This document shows positions 13,963 to 25,409 of a DNA stretch of 36,303 nucleotides, one piece after another. Under the pieces are notes generated by a model. It had not been told where the DNA came from, did no database searches, and saw nothing but the letters and a program-made list of their open reading frames with translations. This stretch comes from Candidatus Poribacteria bacterium (GTDB lineage Bacteria > Poribacteria > WGA-4E > UBA9662), in the NCBI GenBank assembly GCA_012963885.1, contig DTUY01000037.1, positions 1 through 36,303 of the forward strand, in the 5' to 3' direction. The position numbers and the translations under genes were made by a program. The first letter of the stretch is position 1. Each line of letters starts with the position of its first letter.

Positions 13963-14745
13963 TTATTCCATTCCGATTCGGCTTAGGTACCCTTTTTTAC
14001 GGACTTGACTGAACATCCAACCGAAGAATGTTGCACCAGTTGCCAAGTAAAGAATGTTCAATGAAAAAGCAATTACCAACATTTTCAGATCAAGCCATTC
14101 TCCATTTGCGAGTACTTTTCGCATCCCTTCAAAGACGTACGTAGATGGCATAGTGTAAGCAATAATTTGCAACCAATCTGGTAGCACCTCCACAGGATAG
14201 AACACCGCTGAGAAAGGTTGAATTAAAAAAGGTACTCCCCAAACTAGAGCTTCAGCAGATTTTCCGAACCGAAGAATAAGTGCCATTGTCACCATGCCGA
14301 GAGCCCATCCGAACAGCAACAAACTAATCAGGAAAGGCAATAATAAAATTCCAATTGATACTATGTTAAATGTATAGAGCAGAAAAGCGAGGGAACCTAG
14401 AACAATGGCAGTGATTGCTGCTTTGATTATTCCCATTATACAGGTGGCAACCATTAACTCAAAAATACTGACTGGAGAAACAAACACATTTAGGATGTTT
14501 TTGACCCATATGTCTTCACTAATGGAAAGTGTAATGGCCTGTTGTGACCGATAGAGAACATCCCAGAAAATTACTGAGCCTAGCAGAAAAAGAGCAACTT
14601 TATTCTCTTTGTTTATATAGGCGCTAACAAACCCCCACACTAGTAAATCCATTATTGGCCAGAAAAAAATTTCCCCTGCTCTAGCTAAGCTTCTGCGATA
14701 AAGGTATAGGTAACGCAACACAAGACCGTTAATTCGTGTTAGCAT
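13963..14745 (-). CDS. ABC-2 type exporter permease
   Basis: The 260-residue integral membrane protein has about six hydrophobic segments (for example VALFLLGSVIFWDVLY, AAITAIVLGSLAFLLY and ILLLPFLISLLLFGWALGMV). The typical ABC-2 region QPFSAVFYPVEVLPDWLQIIAYTMPSTYVFEGMR is recognisable. Its ATG overlaps the stop of the ATPase gene as TAATG, so the two are translationally coupled and form one exporter. The substrate is unknown; relatives export polysaccharides, lipids or drugs. Confidence 0.9.
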   Translation of the reverse strand: MLTRINGLVLRYLYLYRRSLARAGEIFFWPIMDLLVWGFVSAYINKENKVALFLLGSVIFWDVLYRSQQAITLSISEDIWVKNILNVFVSPVSIFELMVATCIMGIIKAAITAIVLGSLAFLLYTFNIVSIGILLLPFLISLLLFGWALGMVTMALILRFGKSAEALVWGVPFLIQPFSAVFYPVEVLPDWLQIIAYTMPSTYVFEGMRKVLANGEWLDLKMLVIAFSLNILYLATGATFFGWMFSQVRKKGYLSRIGME

Positions 14746-15512
14746 TACCCTAACTCCGAAAAATCCTTGGGTTTGCTATTCCTGGCCAGTGAAATGAATA
14801 CTTCCTCTAACGATTTAGTTTGATAGTTATCGATGATCTCCTGAGGTGTTCCTTCGGCAACGATATTGCCACATGACAAGAATATGACACGATCACACAT
14901 TAATTCAATTTCTTGCATATTATGCGAAGTATAAAGCATTGTTACGTCACGTTCTCGCTGAACATTTTGGAGAGTTACTCGAACTTTCTCAGCAATGTTA
15001 GGGTCAAGGCTGGCTGTTGGTTCATCAAGAAGCAGGACTTCTGGATCGTTCAGAAATGCTTTACATAGGTTCAGTCGTGTAAGTTGCCCAGAAGAAAGTG
15101 CACCAGTGACCTGGTTAATGACCTCTGGTATCTCGAGTAGATCAAGCAAATCACCAATCTTTCTTCGAGGGGTTCGGTTACCATACAATTTCCCAAATAC
15201 ATTTAGGTTTTCATAGACCGTGAGATTACTTGGCAAAGAAATATAGGCGGAAGCGAAGTTAATGCGTTGGAGAATTTTACGCCGGTTGTGTCGAAGACTA
15301 AGATTGAAAATCCGAATATCACCAGAGGTTGGTTTTGTTAAACCAAGCAGCATATGAATCGTTGTCGTTTTTCCCGCTCCGTTTGGCCCCAGCAACCCAA
15401 CCGTTTCACCTTTAGCAACTGAGAATGCCAGCTTGTTAACTGCTGTAATATCTCCAAAATTTTTGGTTAATTTCTCAACTTTTATAATTTGATCTGACAA
15501 CCACCCCTCCAT
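14745..15512 (-). CDS. ABC transporter ATP-binding protein
   Basis: The 255-residue ATPase has Walker A GPNGAGKTT, the Q-loop region, the signature LSSGQLTRLNLCKA, Walker B VLLLDEPTASLDP and the H-loop in YTSHNM. It is of the ABC-2 exporter (DrrA/CcmA-like) type and powers the permease encoded just downstream. The start may be the TTG at 15500, not the ATG at 15512: the bases after the ATG read GGAGGGGTGG and look like a ribosome binding site for that TTG. The first four residues are therefore uncertain. Confidence 0.92.
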   Translation of the reverse strand: MEGWLSDQIIKVEKLTKNFGDITAVNKLAFSVAKGETVGLLGPNGAGKTTTIHMLLGLTKPTSGDIRIFNLSLRHNRRKILQRINFASAYISLPSNLTVYENLNVFGKLYGNRTPRRKIGDLLDLLEIPEVINQVTGALSSGQLTRLNLCKAFLNDPEVLLLDEPTASLDPNIAEKVRVTLQNVQRERDVTMLYTSHNMQEIELMCDRVIFLSCGNIVAEGTPQEIIDNYQTKSLEEVFISLARNSKPKDFSELG

Positions 15513-18157: not shown

Positions 18158-19618
18158 TCAGTTTGTGTCTTTTATTTCAGTTGTAATGATATGTACTTGG
18201 TTTTTACCTTGCTGTTCTTCTCCACTAGTGTTGATTACTGTTTCAACCACAGCAATTTGCCGTCCATTTCGATCGATCGCGATCATATCATAGGGAATTT
18301 GGCCTGCCAGACGATAGGTACGGAGATACTTTTCAAGTCCTCCTCCCTCTGTCGTTAGATCAAAAATTGAAACGCCGTTTGGCCTTTCTGTATCGGTTTG
18401 ACCGTACCTTGAGATCGGAATCGCTGCGTATTTTCCAGATAGATCAATACACAGCCCTTGCGGCATATTCTCTAATTTCCACTGCCATGATTTCTGCCCA
18501 TTCCATTGATACCCGAAAAGAGTAAGTCCATTTGGATGTGTGGTTGGTGGGCGTTTGACGCCTTTTTGCAGATGATAGGGTACGAAAGTATCGCCAGTAA
18601 TAAAGATTATAAATTCATTTGTTGTTCCAACCGTTCCTGATGTTGCAGTGATTGGGATGCCACTGATTTCAATGGGTGTAGTTAGATCTTCCTGCCAAAT
18701 CGGTTTTTCCTCTGAGAAAATAAAGGCTCGACCATCATTGGTTGTCACACCAATTGACTTGCCATCAGGTGAGACAGCAACACCACGCCAGAAAGTTACC
18801 TGGTCAAAATAAGGCGTTAGCGCCGTAAAAGTGTGCCCCCATCGAATTTTCCCCGTTTCACCATCGACAATGTAAAGAGATCCCGGTTTTAAATCTCCAA
18901 TCGATTGATCGGCTGAGTGTTTATCACAGACGAAAGCAATCGTTCGGCCATCATGACTGTAATCAAACCAGCGGATAATCATCGGAAGTGGTCTTTCGGA
19001 TGGAAACTTCCATATTGGATTTCCTGTTTTAGCATCGAATCGATAAAGTTGCGATTTGATCAGTGATTGACCATCCTTATACCATGAATGGACAGCTGCA
19101 ACAATTAAGTCTCCCTGACTGGTGGCAGCAATACGATGTGGACCGGGATACTGAATCCAGGCATAATAATCGTCTGGGTTTTCCGGTATGGATGTATCGA
19201 TATCATTAGCAAGACGATATTTCCACAAAAGCTTGGGCTTTCGTGATTTGGAGACATCATAACAGAAAATGAATCCATCGGCTGATTGCTCACCCAGGTA
19301 AAATTGCTTGCCATTCAAAGCAAAAGTTGCGTGTTTGGCATATCCCTGTGAGATTCGAGTCTTCCATATCATTTTTTCAGTGATTGTGCTGATAGTGGCA
19401 AGGTACCCAGAACTTGTTCCCAATACCAGTTGACTACCGTCAGGAGAGAGTGCGATTGTGGTGGGTTGTGCTGGCCTCTGAAGTTTGGAAAACGGTGGCA
19501 GGATAGAATCGATTTCGATCTGGCCACAAACGGCACCATCATAAATGAAAAAGCAAAAGGTAAAAAGAGTAATGTATAACACGCTGGATTTTCTAGCTGT
19601 CAAACTTTGGTTCTTCAT
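18158..19618 (-). CDS. Exported beta-propeller (WD40/PQQ-like) protein
   Basis: The 486-residue product has a signal peptide (SSVLYITLFTFCFFIYDGAVCGQ) and then repeated propeller blades such as TTIALSPDGSQLVLGTSSG, LYRFDAKTGNPIWKF, LYIVDGETGKIRWGH and RGVAVSPDGKSIGVTTNDG. No enzyme motif is seen, and such propellers bind ligands or partners. Its ATG overlaps the stop of the lipoprotein/ECF-S gene as TAATG. It is the third gene downstream of the cobalamin riboswitch, so it is inferred to belong to the same uptake system. Confidence 0.8.
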   Translation of the reverse strand: MKNQSLTARKSSVLYITLFTFCFFIYDGAVCGQIEIDSILPPFSKLQRPAQPTTIALSPDGSQLVLGTSSGYLATISTITEKMIWKTRISQGYAKHATFALNGKQFYLGEQSADGFIFCYDVSKSRKPKLLWKYRLANDIDTSIPENPDDYYAWIQYPGPHRIAATSQGDLIVAAVHSWYKDGQSLIKSQLYRFDAKTGNPIWKFPSERPLPMIIRWFDYSHDGRTIAFVCDKHSADQSIGDLKPGSLYIVDGETGKIRWGHTFTALTPYFDQVTFWRGVAVSPDGKSIGVTTNDGRAFIFSEEKPIWQEDLTTPIEISGIPITATSGTVGTTNEFIIFITGDTFVPYHLQKGVKRPPTTHPNGLTLFGYQWNGQKSWQWKLENMPQGLCIDLSGKYAAIPISRYGQTDTERPNGVSIFDLTTEGGGLEKYLRTYRLAGQIPYDMIAIDRNGRQIAVVETVINTSGEEQQGKNQVHIITTEIKDTN

Positions 19619-21405
19619 TATTCCGCGATTGCCTGTAATCCGAGGCCAATGCGTTTTCCTAACAATACACCGATAACAGTATAAGCAAATCCGGAAATTA
19701 CAATCATGGTCCAGATGTACCAGCTTGCATAGAAAAGGCGATAAAAGGCGATGCTAATCTGAAAGTTGATATAGACACTAAGTGCGTCGCAGACACCAAA
19801 GGTCAAAGCAAGTATAAGTCCATTTCTACCTTGGCCGGACAACAAAAAACCGAGTTCCAATAAAATGGTAGAAATACCAACATAAACAAGGGTAAATGGG
19901 GTGAACGCTCCGAGCAGAATGCCACCAAGCAAAACCCGCACCGCCGATACCAATGTTATTGTCCATGGTTTTTGGATTAGCATGATTAAAGCCGTCAGCA
20001 AAGCATAGTATAGTATTTCATTGATGAATCCAATGACCAGAAAAGAAGCTGGTCCAAGTAGCGCATTGATAATTGTGAAAAATAGTGTTGTCGGTACGCT
20101 TACGGTAACGAAGATTGTGGTGGCGAAAAGCGCGGTAAGAACTAACTCTTTGGTAGAAAAAAAACTGAGGATTTTTTGATGGAATCGAACTAACCCAATC
20201 AGGCCAAAACCAGCGACCACAGTGGCGATCCCCGCCGTAGCCAGCGAATATATATTCGGTTTAATAATTTCAAGCGGGTAGCTTGCAGACAAAACAGGAG
20301 TTTTGTTTCCCCAAACTTTGATCTTAATGTCCCGTTTGTAGTGACCTGTTCTTGGTTTCGAGGAAGGGTTCAGATAAAATGGAAGAACGATATCTGTGAC
20401 ACTTTCGCCTGCTAAACTGATTATGGCAAAGCTTTGATTTGAATTAGGACCGATTTCATTAGGCGGTGTCAGAAACGAAATAGCTTTATTTGTTCTAACG
20501 TCACGGTTAATGGATGACACGACGGCATGAATTGTTTCTGAGTGTTGATTTCGAATTCGTACTGTTTGAAAGGCAATCGGGATGTAAGCATTGTGTCGCT
20601 CACGATTTGCGGGTAGTTTTATCGCATCCGGTCGTTGTCTCAGGTTAGAAGTTCCATTGGCATCGGTCGGCATCAGGATTTCCTCAATTGAAATTTGCTC
20701 GGCAACGGCCTGAATTGAAACTAACCGTAATTCTATTGATGAGGATCTTGTCCATTTTTCACCATCCGGATTTTCAAAGAAAACGCGTCCCACAATTTTT
20801 GTATCAGGTGAAGTAAATTCATCGGGTATCTTCAGCCTAAATTGGTCGTGCCATACTTCAAATCCGGTAACAAAGGATGATTGCCGAATGATAGGTGATG
20901 TGAATGGGGTTTCAATCTCAATCCGAAAATTGATCGGTGCCTCAAAACCGTTTTTAACCATGACTGACACATGTGCTTCAGATCCATACAGAATGAGCGA
21001 ACTTTTGGACGGATTTGCGTCTGGATAGGGAACTCCAATTCGGATTGACCCTCGCGGTTCAAGGTCAGATGCTGTATGAACCTGCCAAGTTTGTTCCCCA
21101 TCTAAACCTTCAAACCTAAATTGGTAATTCTGATCTTTAGACCATCTAAAGTAGACCGACTCAGTTTTATTAGCTAGTCCACCAAGATCGAGCTCAGCCA
21201 AAATTTGATTATTTGCCACGTTGAAGACGCTAACTCGTTGTACCTGTTTTCGGTTGTGATCGGGAAAGTGAATTTTTGCCCCGCGCTGAAAAAACTCGAC
21301 CTTAGCGGTAAAATCAGAAAAATCGGCCTGTTCTATTTTACGGAAGCACCCTAAAAAAAGGAGAAGAAGGATGCACAGAAACCTGATACAAAAACCAGAC
21401 ATCAT
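19618..21405 (-). CDS. Lipoprotein fused to a YkoE/ECF-S-like membrane domain
   Basis: The 595-residue protein starts with a lipoprotein signal (LLLLFLGC, acylated Cys at about residue 20). Residues 25-380 look like extracytoplasmic beta-sandwich domains. After one membrane helix near 387-405, residues 418-595 form a six-helix module with TKELVLTALFA, NALLGPASFLVIGFINEI, QKPWTITLVSAVR and VIGVLLGKRIGLGL, which resembles YkoE and other ECF transporter substrate-binding (S) components. S components bind vitamins and rely on EcfA/EcfT for energy; neither is encoded nearby. Its ATG overlaps the stop of the propeller gene by 4 bases (ATGA). The upstream cobalamin riboswitch suggests a corrinoid substrate. 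The ECF-S call is from the motif pattern and needs a profile test. Confidence 0.7.
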   Translation of the reverse strand: MMSGFCIRFLCILLLLFLGCFRKIEQADFSDFTAKVEFFQRGAKIHFPDHNRKQVQRVSVFNVANNQILAELDLGGLANKTESVYFRWSKDQNYQFRFEGLDGEQTWQVHTASDLEPRGSIRIGVPYPDANPSKSSLILYGSEAHVSVMVKNGFEAPINFRIEIETPFTSPIIRQSSFVTGFEVWHDQFRLKIPDEFTSPDTKIVGRVFFENPDGEKWTRSSSIELRLVSIQAVAEQISIEEILMPTDANGTSNLRQRPDAIKLPANRERHNAYIPIAFQTVRIRNQHSETIHAVVSSINRDVRTNKAISFLTPPNEIGPNSNQSFAIISLAGESVTDIVLPFYLNPSSKPRTGHYKRDIKIKVWGNKTPVLSASYPLEIIKPNIYSLATAGIATVVAGFGLIGLVRFHQKILSFFSTKELVLTALFATTIFVTVSVPTTLFFTIINALLGPASFLVIGFINEILYYALLTALIMLIQKPWTITLVSAVRVLLGGILLGAFTPFTLVYVGISTILLELGFLLSGQGRNGLILALTFGVCDALSVYINFQISIAFYRLFYASWYIWTMIVISGFAYTVIGVLLGKRIGLGLQAIAE

Positions 21406-22535
21406 TTATTAGTTATGCCTACATCATGTTTAACTACTCCCCATGTTGTTTGGTACAGATTTCCAATTTCTGAAACCCCTATCGAATTTTTGCCTTCAAC
21501 TTGGGCAACCGCGACAACAGAGGCCCCCCTCCCAACCTGATAACGCTTGACCAGATTGTACTTTGAGTTGATGACGCGCAGTTCGTCAAGACCTCCCCCG
21601 GTCCAATCCGGAACACAGACATAGTAGGTACTTTTCTCCTGATCGACTGTCATGCCAAATCCACCTAAAAATTCAGCAATCGGGTTGTTTTTGTCACGGA
21701 CAAGTTTGTTATGGACTAAATCGTAAACCATGGCTCCAGTGGCGGTGTTAATTACCACAATCTGTTGCGCGCGATTTACGACTATTGCACCTGGAGTAGT
21801 TTTAAGTTTGACCGTTTTTTCAATTTCGTCAGTATTTACATTTATAATTGTCAATAGTCCTGGTATCATGGCGTAATCGCCCGTTGAGATAACTAACACT
21901 TTGGAGTTTCCATCGGTTGTGATCTCCGTTGCGTTGGTTGCTACCTTAATTGTTTTTATAACTTGATCGGTCGCCGTATCAATAACCGATACGCTGCTCT
22001 CGCCATAGGTTGTTTTAAAAGTAACCCAATTGGTTACCGCAGCTGAATTGGCGACGTAAGCTTTCTTGTTAATTACGGTAATTCCCCAAGGTTTAGATCT
22101 AACCTTGATTGTACTGGTAACAGACCTGGTATTCAGATTAAGAACTGCGACCTGATCTAGGCCATTACAGGTAACATAAGCTTTGGAGAAATCAGCAAAG
22201 GCAATCTTTTCTGGCAACGCACCGGGACCAACCGAAATTTCACCCACGCTGTTTTGCTCAAGTAAATCAATAATCTGAACGTTGTTACTATAAGTGTTGA
22301 CAACATAAGCCAGATTCTGGTGAACCTGTACGTCGTTGGGAGTAGAACCAATAGTAATGATGTCGTTTTTGACTGCTCTTTTGGTGTCCGGTTGGTTGAG
22401 ATCGACGATTGAGATGGATCCGGGATCTTTGAGACCGTTGGCAACTATAGCCAGGTTCTTAACTTGTGCGGAAACACTGAAGCTAACGATAAACATAGCT
22501 GTCGCTGCTTTAGCTATGATTTTTAGCATTTTCAT
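21402..22535 (-). CDS. Exported YVTN-type beta-propeller under cobalamin riboswitch
   Basis: The 377-residue product has a cleavable signal peptide ending SFSVSAQ and then blades of the YVTN type: KNLAIVANGLKDPGSISIVD, NLAYVVNTYSNNVQIIDL, KAYVTCNGLDQVAVLNL, KAYVANSAAV, SVSVIDTATDQVIKTI. Such propellers bind ligands at the extracytoplasmic face. The ATG at 22535 is preceded by GAGGAG at 22542-22547. That binding site lies 12 bases below a terminator hairpin which is itself below a cobalamin riboswitch, so expression should fall when corrinoid is plentiful. BtuG of Bacteroides is also a beta-propeller and captures cobalamin, so a corrinoid-capturing role is inferred. Homology to BtuG itself is not claimed. 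Confidence 0.85.
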   Translation of the reverse strand: MKMLKIIAKAATAMFIVSFSVSAQVKNLAIVANGLKDPGSISIVDLNQPDTKRAVKNDIITIGSTPNDVQVHQNLAYVVNTYSNNVQIIDLLEQNSVGEISVGPGALPEKIAFADFSKAYVTCNGLDQVAVLNLNTRSVTSTIKVRSKPWGITVINKKAYVANSAAVTNWVTFKTTYGESSVSVIDTATDQVIKTIKVATNATEITTDGNSKVLVISTGDYAMIPGLLTIINVNTDEIEKTVKLKTTPGAIVVNRAQQIVVINTATGAMVYDLVHNKLVRDKNNPIAEFLGGFGMTVDQEKSTYYVCVPDWTGGGLDELRVINSKYNLVKRYQVGRGASVVAVAQVEGKNSIGVSEIGNLYQTTWGVVKHDVGITNK

Positions 22536-22559
22536 CAAAATCTCCTCGCTTTTGAATAG

Positions 22560-22588
22560 AAAAAACCAATTTTCGTTAGGAAAATTGG
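22560..22588 (-). terminator. Riboswitch-controlled intrinsic terminator
   Basis: On the minus strand CCAATTTTC, a five-base loop and GAAAATTGG form a perfect 9-bp stem, followed at once by six U residues (A-tract 22560-22565 on the plus strand). It sits between the cobalamin aptamer and the ribosome binding site of the first gene. This is the expected expression platform for ligand-dependent transcription termination. Confidence 0.88.
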
Positions 22589-22667
22589 CTCAAAAGAATC
22601 GACTCGCAGACAGATGAAATGCGGTTCCTTCAACGCAACTTTCCCACGAAAGCTGATGCGTCAATTA

Positions 22668-22863
22668 GTTCAGGCAGGTTTCCTGACTAGCAACGACCTG
22701 TATTCACCTTCCCACTCCAGATTAGGAATAGTGGCATATCGAACACAGGCATATGGACTTGAGTCAAATGGGATCTCAAACCCTGTTGATTACAGTAGCG
22801 GGGCTGCGACGGATTCTCACCGTACTTCCCTATTATCTGGTATTAAATGCCAGCACCTGAACC
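22668..22863 (-). ncRNA. Cobalamin riboswitch aptamer
   Basis: Read on the minus strand, the conserved elements of the cobalamin aptamer follow in order: GGTGC after the 5' arm, AATAGGGAA, CGGTGAGAATCCG, GCAGCCCCGCTACTGTAA, a variable arm, GCCACT, GGGAAGGTG, and the B12 box GTCAGGAAACCTGCC. The closing P1 helix is a perfect 7-bp match, GTTCAGG (22856-22862) with CCTGAAC (22668-22674). It controls the downstream propeller/ECF-S operon through the terminator at 22560-22588. Confidence 0.96.
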
Positions 22864-22878
22864 GAATCAGACACAAAT

Positions 22879-22909
22879 TTTATATGAAAAATTATTTTGG
22901 GTGTGACAA
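22879..22909 (-). promoter_or_regulatory. Possible sigma-70 promoter of the riboswitch operon
   Basis: On the minus strand TTGTCA (22904-22909) and TATAAA (22879-22884) resemble -35 and -10 boxes. The 19-base spacer is longer than ideal. Transcription would start a few bases before the riboswitch, which fits its position. The downstream end of queG lies only about 50 bp upstream. Confidence 0.4.
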
Positions 22910-22955: not shown

Positions 22956-24089
22956 CTAAATTGAGTTGATTGCAAACTCGAGTTCATCAATAATTTCTGG
23001 ATTTTCTTCGACCTCAAGTCGTTCTTTAAGTGCCTGAGTTGCATTATCTCCGCCGATTTGTCCTAGCCCCCATGCGGCATGACCACGTACAAGTGGTTCG
23101 GAGTCATTCAGTGCCTTTCCAAGTACGGTGACGGCTGATTTGTCTTTCGAATTGCCAAGAGCAACCGCCACGTTTCTGAGAAAGCCGCGTCGTTTAGATC
23201 TTTTAACCGGGCTCTCTTTGAAACGTCGATTGAACTCTTCCTGTGTCATGTTCATTAGTGAAGTCAGTTTAGGAAGAAAATTACCTTTTCGCGGCTGGAA
23301 TCCTTTTTCCAAAGATGGTGTGGCCTTGCTGTTCCATGGACAAACTTCCTGACAGATGTCACATCCAAATATTAAGTTGCCCATCTTTGGACGTATTTCT
23401 CTGGGAATTGACTCTTTGAGTTCAATTGTCAAATACGAGATGCAAAGGCGTGAGTCGAGAACGTTAGGCTCAACTATAGCATCCGTCGGGCAAGCCTCAA
23501 TGCAAAGTGTACAGGTGCCACAACTGCCACGAAGTTCAATTTGATCCGGCTGAAGCGGGATGTCAATTAATATCTCTGCCAGAAAATACCACGACCCTTT
23601 TTCCCAGTTGATTAAATTGGTGTTCTTGGCTAGCCAACCTAACCCGGCGTTTTGAGCGTACTCTCGTTCCAAGATCGGGCCTGAATCCACAAAAACGCGA
23701 TTGCTCGTTTCCGTTCGAGCGATTTTTTCGATAATTTTCACCAATTTTTTCAGTTTTGCCCGTATGATATCATGGTAGTCATCCCCCCAGGCGTAACGCG
23801 ATATTTGCCCGCGTAACGGATCAATTTTTCGTGCCGAATCGGGTTCAATCGTGTGGTAATTCATTCCTACGCAGATAACCGACTTGGCCTCAGAGAGTAT
23901 AGTTTTTGGGTCCCTCTTCAAATTCAGATGCCGTTTAAGATACTCCATTTTACCGGCATATCCTTTGTCCAGCCATTTTTGGTAACGATCGATCATTTTA
24001 GGGGGATCTGCCTGAGTGATGCCAACAAGGTCAAATCCCATTTGCTGAGCAATCTCTTTGATTCTTCGACTTAGCTTCTGACTATACAT
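22956..24089 (-). CDS. queG: Epoxyqueuosine reductase QueG with C-terminal HEAT-like repeats
   Basis: The 377-residue enzyme performs the last step of queuosine biosynthesis, reducing epoxyqueuosine in tRNA with cobalamin and two [4Fe-4S] clusters. Motifs: GFDLVGIT near the start, the catalytic region VDSGPILEREYAQNAGLGW, cluster motifs CGTCTLCIEACPTDAI and FGCDICQEVCPWN, and a HEAT-like tail (NDSEPLVRGHAAWGLGQIG). The ATG at 24089 gives MYSQKLSRRIKEIAQQMGF, the normal QueG N-terminus; the longer frame starts with TTG at 24140 and adds 17 unsupported residues. It is divergent from the LarA-like gene and lies directly upstream of the cobalamin riboswitch, matching its cofactor need. Confidence 0.95.
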   Translation of the reverse strand: MYSQKLSRRIKEIAQQMGFDLVGITQADPPKMIDRYQKWLDKGYAGKMEYLKRHLNLKRDPKTILSEAKSVICVGMNYHTIEPDSARKIDPLRGQISRYAWGDDYHDIIRAKLKKLVKIIEKIARTETSNRVFVDSGPILEREYAQNAGLGWLAKNTNLINWEKGSWYFLAEILIDIPLQPDQIELRGSCGTCTLCIEACPTDAIVEPNVLDSRLCISYLTIELKESIPREIRPKMGNLIFGCDICQEVCPWNSKATPSLEKGFQPRKGNFLPKLTSLMNMTQEEFNRRFKESPVKRSKRRGFLRNVAVALGNSKDKSAVTVLGKALNDSEPLVRGHAAWGLGQIGGDNATQALKERLEVEENPEIIDELEFAINSI

Positions 24090-24155
24090 TTCGTTTGCAA
24101 ATAGACCTAATGCTCTGATAACATTTGAGAAATTATACAATAATATGAGGGTGTT

Positions 24156-25409
24156 ATGCTATTACCAAAGATGATTAGAGTGAAGCAAAAATTCCCAACT
24201 GATGTGGTTGAAGATGTCCGATCCACGGTTTTTACCGAACTCGATCAAATCGGCGTGGACTCAATTGTAAAGTCGGGAGATGCTGTAGCAGTTGGTGCCG
24301 GAAGCCGTGGAATCGCTAACATTGATGTCGCTATCAAATCGGTGGTGGACTATTTAAAGGAGATTGGTGCAAAGCCGTTTGTTTTTCCTGCTATGGGCAG
24401 TCATGGTGGAGCAACACCAGAAGGCCAAAAGGATATTTTGGCACATTACGGTATTACCGAAGAGAAAATGAAGGCACCGATCCGAGCAACCATGGAAGTG
24501 GTCGAAGTTGGTAGAACGGCTGACGATTTACCTGTTTTTCTCGACCGCTATGCCTATGAGGCGGATGCGGCTATACCAGTCAATCGCGTCAAATCCCATA
24601 CTGATTTTCACGGATCTATTGAAAGCGGCCTAATGAAGATGCTGGCAATTGGCTTTGGCAAACAAAAAGGCGCCAGTATGTACCATCGCGCATTCTTTCG
24701 TTATGGTTTCGAGCATGTTATCCTTGCCTCCGGACGTCTTTTAATCGAGGCTGATAAGATCGGATTTGGTGTTGCCTTGGTTGAAAATGCCTATCAACAA
24801 ACGGCAAAAGTCTCCGCCATACAATCAAAAGATTTTGTGCGTTGCGAACGCGAATTGTTGGTTGAAGCCAAAGCTTTGTCTGGCAAGTTGCCGTTTGATG
24901 AATTAGACTTTCTGATTTTAGATGAAGTGGGTAAGAATATTTCTGGTACTGGCATGGACACCAATGTCATTGGCCGGTATATGCAGAATTTCGAACCAGA
25001 TCCGGAGAAACCCTCTATTACTCGCATTTTTGCCCGTGATTTAACTGAAGACAGTTTGGGAAATGCGACAGGGATTGGTCTGGCAGATTTCACCACAACA
25101 CGGCTTGTAGAAAAATTTGATAAAAAAGCAACCTACATGAACGGACTTACAGGACTAGGTCCTCAAAAGTCACGAATTCCGTTTCACTATGATACGGATC
25201 TGGAAGTAATTGAAGCCGCACTCAATACAATCGGTCTGACGCCTCCAGAAGAAGCCAGAATCGTAAGGATTCAAAATACCCTTAAACTGGGTGAGGTAGA
25301 TATATCTGAAAACTTAGTTGAAGATGCTGAATTGCGAAGTGATCTTGAAATTATTAGCGAAGCCAAAGCGTTTGCGTTTGATCCATCAGGGAATCTTCTA
25401 CCATTCTAA
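24156..25409 (+). CDS. LarA-like (lactate racemase N-terminal domain, DUF2088) protein
   Basis: The 417-residue protein matches the LarA/DUF2088 family: VAVGAGSRGIANI, FVFPAMGSHGGATPEGQ, VNRVKSHTDFHGSIESGLMKMLAIGFGKQKGA and LDEVGKNISGTGMDTNVIG. Lactate racemase LarA uses a nickel-pincer nucleotide, and many relatives act on other alpha-hydroxy acids. No larB, larC or larE gene is near, so lactate racemase activity is not implied. GAGGGTG lies just before the ATG. A 57-bp gap separates it from ubiX on the same strand. Confidence 0.82.
   Translation: MLLPKMIRVKQKFPTDVVEDVRSTVFTELDQIGVDSIVKSGDAVAVGAGSRGIANIDVAIKSVVDYLKEIGAKPFVFPAMGSHGGATPEGQKDILAHYGITEEKMKAPIRATMEVVEVGRTADDLPVFLDRYAYEADAAIPVNRVKSHTDFHGSIESGLMKMLAIGFGKQKGASMYHRAFFRYGFEHVILASGRLLIEADKIGFGVALVENAYQQTAKVSAIQSKDFVRCERELLVEAKALSGKLPFDELDFLILDEVGKNISGTGMDTNVIGRYMQNFEPDPEKPSITRIFARDLTEDSLGNATGIGLADFTTTRLVEKFDKKATYMNGLTGLGPQKSRIPFHYDTDLEVIEAALNTIGLTPPEEARIVRIQNTLKLGEVDISENLVEDAELRSDLEIISEAKAFAFDPSGNLLPF

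Follow-up and report, generated by a model that had tools for sequence, protein, structure and literature searches.

What do the three overlapping genes behind a cobalamin riboswitch in a Candidatus Poribacteria genome encode, and could their products bring corrinoids into the cell? The genes, here termed A, P2, and B, lie on contig DTUY01000037.1 of assembly GCA_012963885.1 (GTDB lineage Bacteria; Poribacteria; WGA-4E; UBA9662), of which positions 1 to 36,303 are referred to as the window. We consider it probable that the operon specifies a dispersed energy-coupling factor (ECF) corrinoid importer, with P2 as a lipid-anchored S-component, A as a BtuG-like capture propeller, and power supplied by an unlinked double-ATPase protein (A1A2) together with an unlinked EcfT. 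No description of this operon was found in the portion of the open-licence PubMed Central (PMC) literature that was searched. The constituents of the locus are as follows.

22875-22656, minus strand: cobalamin riboswitch aptamer RF00174 (96.9 bits, E 3.7e-23, gathering score 31.5, full model 1-189)
22655-22636, minus strand: predicted anti-terminator strand, pairing with the 5' arm of the terminator
22591-22563, minus strand: intrinsic terminator belonging to the expression platform: a stem of 12 pairs, then a T run
22538-21402, minus strand: gene A, exported YVTN β-propeller, BtuG-like (TIGR02276; signal peptide without lipobox)
21405-19618, minus strand: gene P2, 595 residues, with lipoprotein-type signal, immunoglobulin (Ig)-like domains, transmembrane helix, and S-component-like domain
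20157-19621, minus strand: S-component-like membrane domain of P2 (residues ~417-595)
19618-18158, minus strand: gene B, second exported β-propeller, PQQ_2/WD40-like, 486 residues (PQQ_2 match)

The full-model RF00174 match, the stem-loop, and the gene coordinates bear out the original prediction of an aptamer and terminator followed by three genes joined by a 4-base overlap (A/P2, ATGA) and a 1-base overlap (P2/B, TAATG). Gene A is listed with a TTG start, the next codon (ATG at 22535) being the likelier one. The aptamer is the sole cobalamin riboswitch match in the source genome (G000; 6.84 Mb in 420 contigs, 96.8% complete). Shuffled sequences contained terminator-like sites at a mean of 0.5 per 701 bases scanned, and unconstrained RNA folding of the leader (22655-22545) yielded an alternative helix with a minimum free energy of -31.1 kcal/mol (z -2.43; 2 of 200 shuffles equally good). 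With adenosylcobalamin scarce, the anti-terminator helix is predicted to form, allowing the operon to be read; with adenosylcobalamin plentiful, the terminator would halt transcription.

The P2 protein is laid out as three β (Ig-like) domains (residues ~35-381), one transmembrane helix (385-407), and an ECF S-component-like domain (418-595), and Cys20, which occupies the lipobox position, is conserved in ≥90% of 40 aligned homologues. P2, of which residues 418-595 had originally been put forward for a profile search against ECF-S families, matched nothing in Pfam or NCBIfam at E ≤ 0.1. Against PDB sequences, P2 returned one chance-level row only, and a profile of its membrane domain found no S-components; the sole matches of that profile, IrtA chains (best E 0.001), were set aside, since the fold points to a different class. 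A fold search with full-length P2 returned only Ig-like and other β domains and was uninformative on the membrane part, which was refolded alone. The PDB fold matches of this model were led by 5edl (entitled "S-component of ECF transporter" and presumably YkoE of Bacillus subtilis) and then RibU, with metal-S, FolT, ThiT, biotin-S, PanT, and BtuM chains within the top 18 rows. The six-helix S-component fold is thus present in the predicted model, upholding the ECF-S-like domain originally proposed. From this modelling, the P2 membrane domain is likely an ECF-type S-component, and the best reading makes it an undescribed, lipid-anchored one. A YRLF-x-A-x-WY loop is invariant in the domain and would be expected at its periplasmic end; the only Cys of the domain, C539, is in the fifth predicted membrane helix.

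Conservation was surveyed in a phylum sample of 84 genomes (72 from the order of the window, 12 from outside it) and in 60 Poribacteria loci carrying P2 relatives (L002-L061; record titles all Candidatus or uncultured Poribacteria). P2 occurs in 69 of the 84 genomes, all 69 being among the 72 of the order, and in 64/72 a riboswitch precedes it on the same strand by 172-2131 nt (median 1674). A separate RF00174 count, which used stricter filters and loses weak matches, gave 80/84 genomes and 70/72 in the order, in single copy save for two in G016. The gene order A-P2-B is kept in 57/60 loci, consistent with the earlier expectation that it would recur beneath cobalamin riboswitches in relatives; two of the exceptions (L009 and L057) are truncated where their contigs stop, and in L004 gene A is on another contig (L103, genome G020). 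At the tblastn threshold of > 150 bits, the flanking QueG, LarA-like, glycosyltransferase, and ATP-binding cassette (ABC) genes were each present in 1/60 loci and ThuA in 0/60, with four of the five tested flanking genes retained in L002 (isolate SP142), the P2 of which is 79% identical. G016 carries a split operon, with separate cobalamin riboswitches for the two halves (P2-B and A). The riboswitch pairing, the conserved A-P2-B order amid unkept flanks, and the split in G016 are, when combined, far beyond chance, and tie these genes to cobalamin control.

Among the genomes departing from this pairing, riboswitch and P2 are on different contigs in G015, G020, and G076 and 5.9 kb apart in G022; G018 and G024 have a riboswitch without a P2 match, G067 has P2 without a riboswitch match, and G017 has neither. 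Genome G015 contains a cobalamin riboswitch (L101, 1263-1456) ahead of a 430-residue open reading frame; none of A, P2, and B is on that contig, the three sharing another one. At L100 (2994-8255), from a genome of the same family (G024), the place of P2 after riboswitch and A is taken by a 1753-residue leucine-rich-repeat protein that weakly matches dockerin and a type IX-like tail. No P2 relatives turned up in a viral_contigs scan.

An ECF energizing module is present in the order. EcfT gave one match each in 68/72 order genomes, while A1A2 at E ≤ 1e-70 was found in 67/72 as opposed to 0/12 outside the order; some A1A2 matches carry at least one in-frame stop and were counted as they stand. 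The source genome has one EcfT (G000:C150) and one A1A2 (G000:C363), apart from each other and unlinked to the operon. This unlinked module, which lay beyond the reach of the original prediction, amends it. Queries for EcfT, A1A2, and TonB receptors covered the window and L002-L061, the latter with flanks of up to 10 kb in either direction; there, neither EcfT nor an A1A2-grade match was found, with weak A1A2 cross-matches to other ABC ATPases (25-30%, ≤84 bits) in the window, L002, and L024. In 8 of the 17 EcfT neighborhoods read in the order, A1A2 adjoins EcfT or is one gene off; tblastn detected no P2-like gene there, and the other genes mapped in L126, L129, and L130 include no S-component look-alike. 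As for other S-component families, BioY, CbiM, and PF12822 were each absent above cut-off (0/72), PF12822 giving one weak match that contains an in-frame stop. So far as recognizable S-components go, P2 is therefore the only candidate found in the order.

Of the 67 genomes with A1A2, 16 neighborhoods were read, and in 12 of these the gene directly follows one of B12-binding radical S-adenosylmethionine (SAM) type, as judged by motif (L126, L128, L129, L130, L133, L140, and L149-L154; DUF4070 type, Pfam-tested in L126). A1A2 of the source genome is not preceded by such a gene.

P2 relatives outside Poribacteria stand beside ECF genes. The five distant loci (L062-L066) come from two Deltaproteobacteria and from metagenome-assembled genomes of a proteobacterium, a member of Planctomycetota, and a Phascolarctobacterium. 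A double ABC ATPase follows the P2 relative in all five, and an EcfT-like protein also follows in four (L063 by PF02361, 2.4e-20; L064-L066 by reading of translations), the L062 contig ending inside the ATPase. In both L063 and L064, a B-like propeller (24-25% identity) adjoins the ECF genes. At L062 (contig G084:C183), a cobalamin riboswitch of 98.1 bits, 117 nt ahead of a TonB receptor, heads a one-strand operon comprising TonB receptor, lipoprotein (weak propeller-type match PF05096, 1.1e-4), CobN (PF02514, 2.2e-275), BchD-like and BchI-like genes, the P2 relative, and A1A2; BchD/BchI-like genes are also next to the relative in L063. No cobalamin riboswitch was found in the stretches read of L063-L066, each of these genomes having one or two elsewhere. 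The L063 relative matches 261 further proteins, and among the 120 matches listed, the few named ones are from Phascolarctobacterium or Acidaminococcaceae. A Deltaproteobacterial contig (L171) carries three cobalamin riboswitch matches within 3 kb (98.1, 63.1, and, for a cut match, 52.3 bits), one of them on the opposite strand.

Would these bacteria need such an importer? CbiC/CobH serves both known routes to the corrin ring, and CbiC matched in 0/72 order genomes. Proteins that use B12 are present, namely QueG in the window, which we take to be B12-dependent, and the B12-binding radical-SAM protein in relatives. For the usual importer channel, a strong FecCD (BtuC-type) permease match (E < 1e-40) was found in 28/72 order genomes, and the best in the source genome reached 26.2 bits against a curated cut-off of 26.5. 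The remaining 43 have no match or a weak partial one of ≤35 bits, many above cut-off. The six single-contig genomes divide into G045 with a strong match, G023 with no match at all, and G079, G081, G082, and G083 with matches of only 29-34 bits. Since neither CbiC nor, in this genome, a clear usual importer channel was found, the operon would explain how these bacteria obtain vitamin B12. TonB-receptor plug domains occur in 84/84 genomes, with eight in the source genome and none in the operon; four TonB-receptor queries found none in the window and a single match in L002-L061 (L033, 1.2-1.7 kb), outside the operon. Of the proposal that the three proteins replace BtuB and BtuCDF, the BtuCDF part thus agrees with the lack of FecCD above cut-off in the genome, but replacement of BtuB is not supported, given the eight plug domains.

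Propeller A matches the YVTN repeat TIGR02276 (1.1e-15), and its profile matches the BtuG1 (8blw, 1.1e-21), BtuG2 (8bmx, 3.1e-14), and BtuG3 (8okv, 4e-14) chains, the identities of which are from PMC10404256. The archaeal 1l0q outscores all of these (2.1e-29), so sequence similarity alone is no proof of orthology between A and BtuG. The signal region of A in the window contains no Cys, indicating an ordinary signal peptide without a lipobox. In sister classes, 20 riboswitches were found and 11 loci read, with an A-like propeller in five (L106, L107, L111, L113, and L114); four of the five are lipoproteins by eye. A Pfam-identified TonB receptor precedes the propeller in L107 and L114, and weak tblastn matches indicate one at the same place in L111 and L113; a BtuR adenosyltransferase is additionally encoded in L114. 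The comparison with BtuG in the original prediction accordingly gains from the profile matches and from these TonB-receptor neighbors, but loses from the missing lipobox. Dockerin-like repeats are added in 11 of the 12 A relatives read, those of L020 and L097 also having a type IX-like tail (tails and repeats Pfam-tested in these two). As such additions point outwards, A may act at the cell surface in those families, to judge from sequence. Propeller B matches PQQ_2 above cut-off (1.7e-07). Gene B is matched twice in tandem at L104 (6009-9412; G020), and a class III ribonucleotide reductase, NrdD, with internal LAGLIDADG/intein matches, is situated between the cobalamin riboswitch and the A-like propeller lipoprotein of L106 (605-3979).

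The observations establish anatomy, conservation, and co-occurrence, from which we infer corrinoid binding, coupling, and transport along the following lines. Outer-membrane passage would occur via an unlinked TonB receptor, after which the BtuG-like propeller A would bind the corrinoid outside the inner membrane. Lipid-anchored P2, with its three Ig-like domains serving as a periplasmic arm, would receive the corrinoid from A and hold it at the periplasmic end of its membrane domain, the expected site of the YRLF-x-A-x-WY loop. The S-domain of P2 would then topple against EcfT, driven by A1A2, with B most likely serving as a docking or delivery partner. A broader scheme, which we put forward tentatively and think somewhat less likely to be right than wrong, is that of a diderm ECF relay in which a BtuG-type propeller freed from BtuB delivers to an Ig-armed S-component fusion and a second propeller provides docking. 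This would be the first ECF transporter with a binding-protein-like delivery line, common also to the Deltaproteobacteria and Negativicutes operons that add TonB receptors and CobN or BchD/BchI-like chelatases.

The separation of P2 from its presumed motor raises the alternative that P2 acts alone, as BtuM is proposed to, without ECF ATPases, the unlinked A1A2-EcfT pair serving another, unrecognized S protein. BtuM and BioY are precedents for solitary S-components (PMC11109136, PMC6072759), and no EcfT or A1A2-grade ATPase match was found in the window or in the 60 loci with their searched flanks. Nonetheless, we regard this as unlikely: the order with P2 in 69/72 genomes also has EcfT in 68 and A1A2 in 67, BioY, CbiM, and PF12822 are absent there above cut-off, all five distant P2 relatives adjoin ECF-type ATPases, and the cobalt-ligating Cys of BtuM is in loop L3 (PMC6072759) as opposed to C539 of P2 in the fifth predicted helix.

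Two further alternatives accept the riboswitch while assigning the operon another task. The P2 family might carry a metal or another tetrapyrrole (cobalt or heme), with the riboswitch only sensing B12 sufficiency; CobN in L062 and the BchD/BchI-like genes in L062 and L063 would suit this, as would the ECF heme importer known for Staphylococcus lugdunensis and the cobalamin riboswitches that hmu-like operons can carry (PMC10100974). We hold it to be improbable, as CbiC at 0/72 means that cobalt would not be for ring synthesis by known routes, propeller A is of BtuG-like type, and each half of the divided operon in G016 begins with a cobalamin riboswitch. Still less credible to us, at the bottom of the range, is an operon confined to corrinoid capture or sensing at the envelope, through a receptor-like S fold, with another system carrying out the inner-membrane transport. 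The S-component fold does also occur in receptors (PMC11109136) and 28/72 order genomes have a strong FecCD match, but the other 44, including the source genome, have a weak partial match (≤35 bits) or none, and P2 relatives have complete ECF gene sets as neighbors. A plain YVTN surface-protein operon was rejected, as it leaves the riboswitch and the ECF neighbors of relatives unexplained.

The dispersed ECF corrinoid importer that we favor has parallels in known systems. Like ECF-CbrT of Lactobacillus delbrueckii (PMC5997447), it would be ECF-type corrinoid import with the S-component gene apart from the energizing module, and the same source notes Lactobacillales genomes without a BtuCDF homologue. 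Unlike CbrT, P2 carries a lipoprotein signal plus three Ig-like domains in the periplasm, is accompanied by two propellers, and belongs to a host with TonB receptors; the P2 library searches (Pfam, NCBIfam, and PDB profile) gave no S-component match, direct CbrT comparison not being part of the search. BtuM, solitary and ~22 kDa, differs in that our genome holds EcfT and ATPases and P2 has a large periplasmic extension; moreover, BtuM has Cys80 in L3 (PMC6072759), while P2 has no Cys in the corresponding loop, a comparison with no structural superposition behind it. As in BtuG-BtuB of Bacteroides, a YVTN-type propeller is under a cobalamin riboswitch, and sister-class relatives are lipoproteins by eye, two of them beside Pfam-tested TonB receptors (L107 and L114); unlike that system, the operon in the window has no TonB receptor, A lacks a lipobox, and 11 of 12 A relatives have dockerin-like repeats, two with type IX-like tails. 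YkoEDC-type ECF systems provide the nearest fold and, in the distant P2 relatives, the arrangement of S, double ATPase, and T, but there is no sequence match, the predicted substrate is another, and the periplasmic arm and propellers are particular to P2 and its operon. BtuCDF differs in its FecCD permease, not found over cut-off in the source genome. Many cobalamin-auxotrophic Gram-negatives encode BtuB but not BtuCDF (PMC6072759), which in many cases leaves the inner-membrane importer to be identified. The P2 family is a concrete, testable importer candidate, both for one entire bacterial order and for its relatives in other phyla. It also widens the range of the S-component fold to include lipid-anchored periplasmic fusions, and it suggests that a BtuG-type propeller need not be paired with BtuB.

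Three neighbors of the operon in the window deserve brief mention. Directly upstream of the riboswitch and on the same strand, positions 22956-24140 (minus) encode a QueG-type epoxyqueuosine reductase with C-terminal HEAT repeats (TIGR00276, 400 bits); it was rejected as a part of the system, as it adjoins the operon in only L002 among the 60 loci. Positions 13963-15512 (minus) encode an ABC-2 type exporter pair (ATPase and permease) weakly similar to ECF ATPase, and positions 24156-25409 (plus) a LarA relative, a nickel-pincer cofactor-dependent isomerase of group 22 (NF052515, 514 bits).

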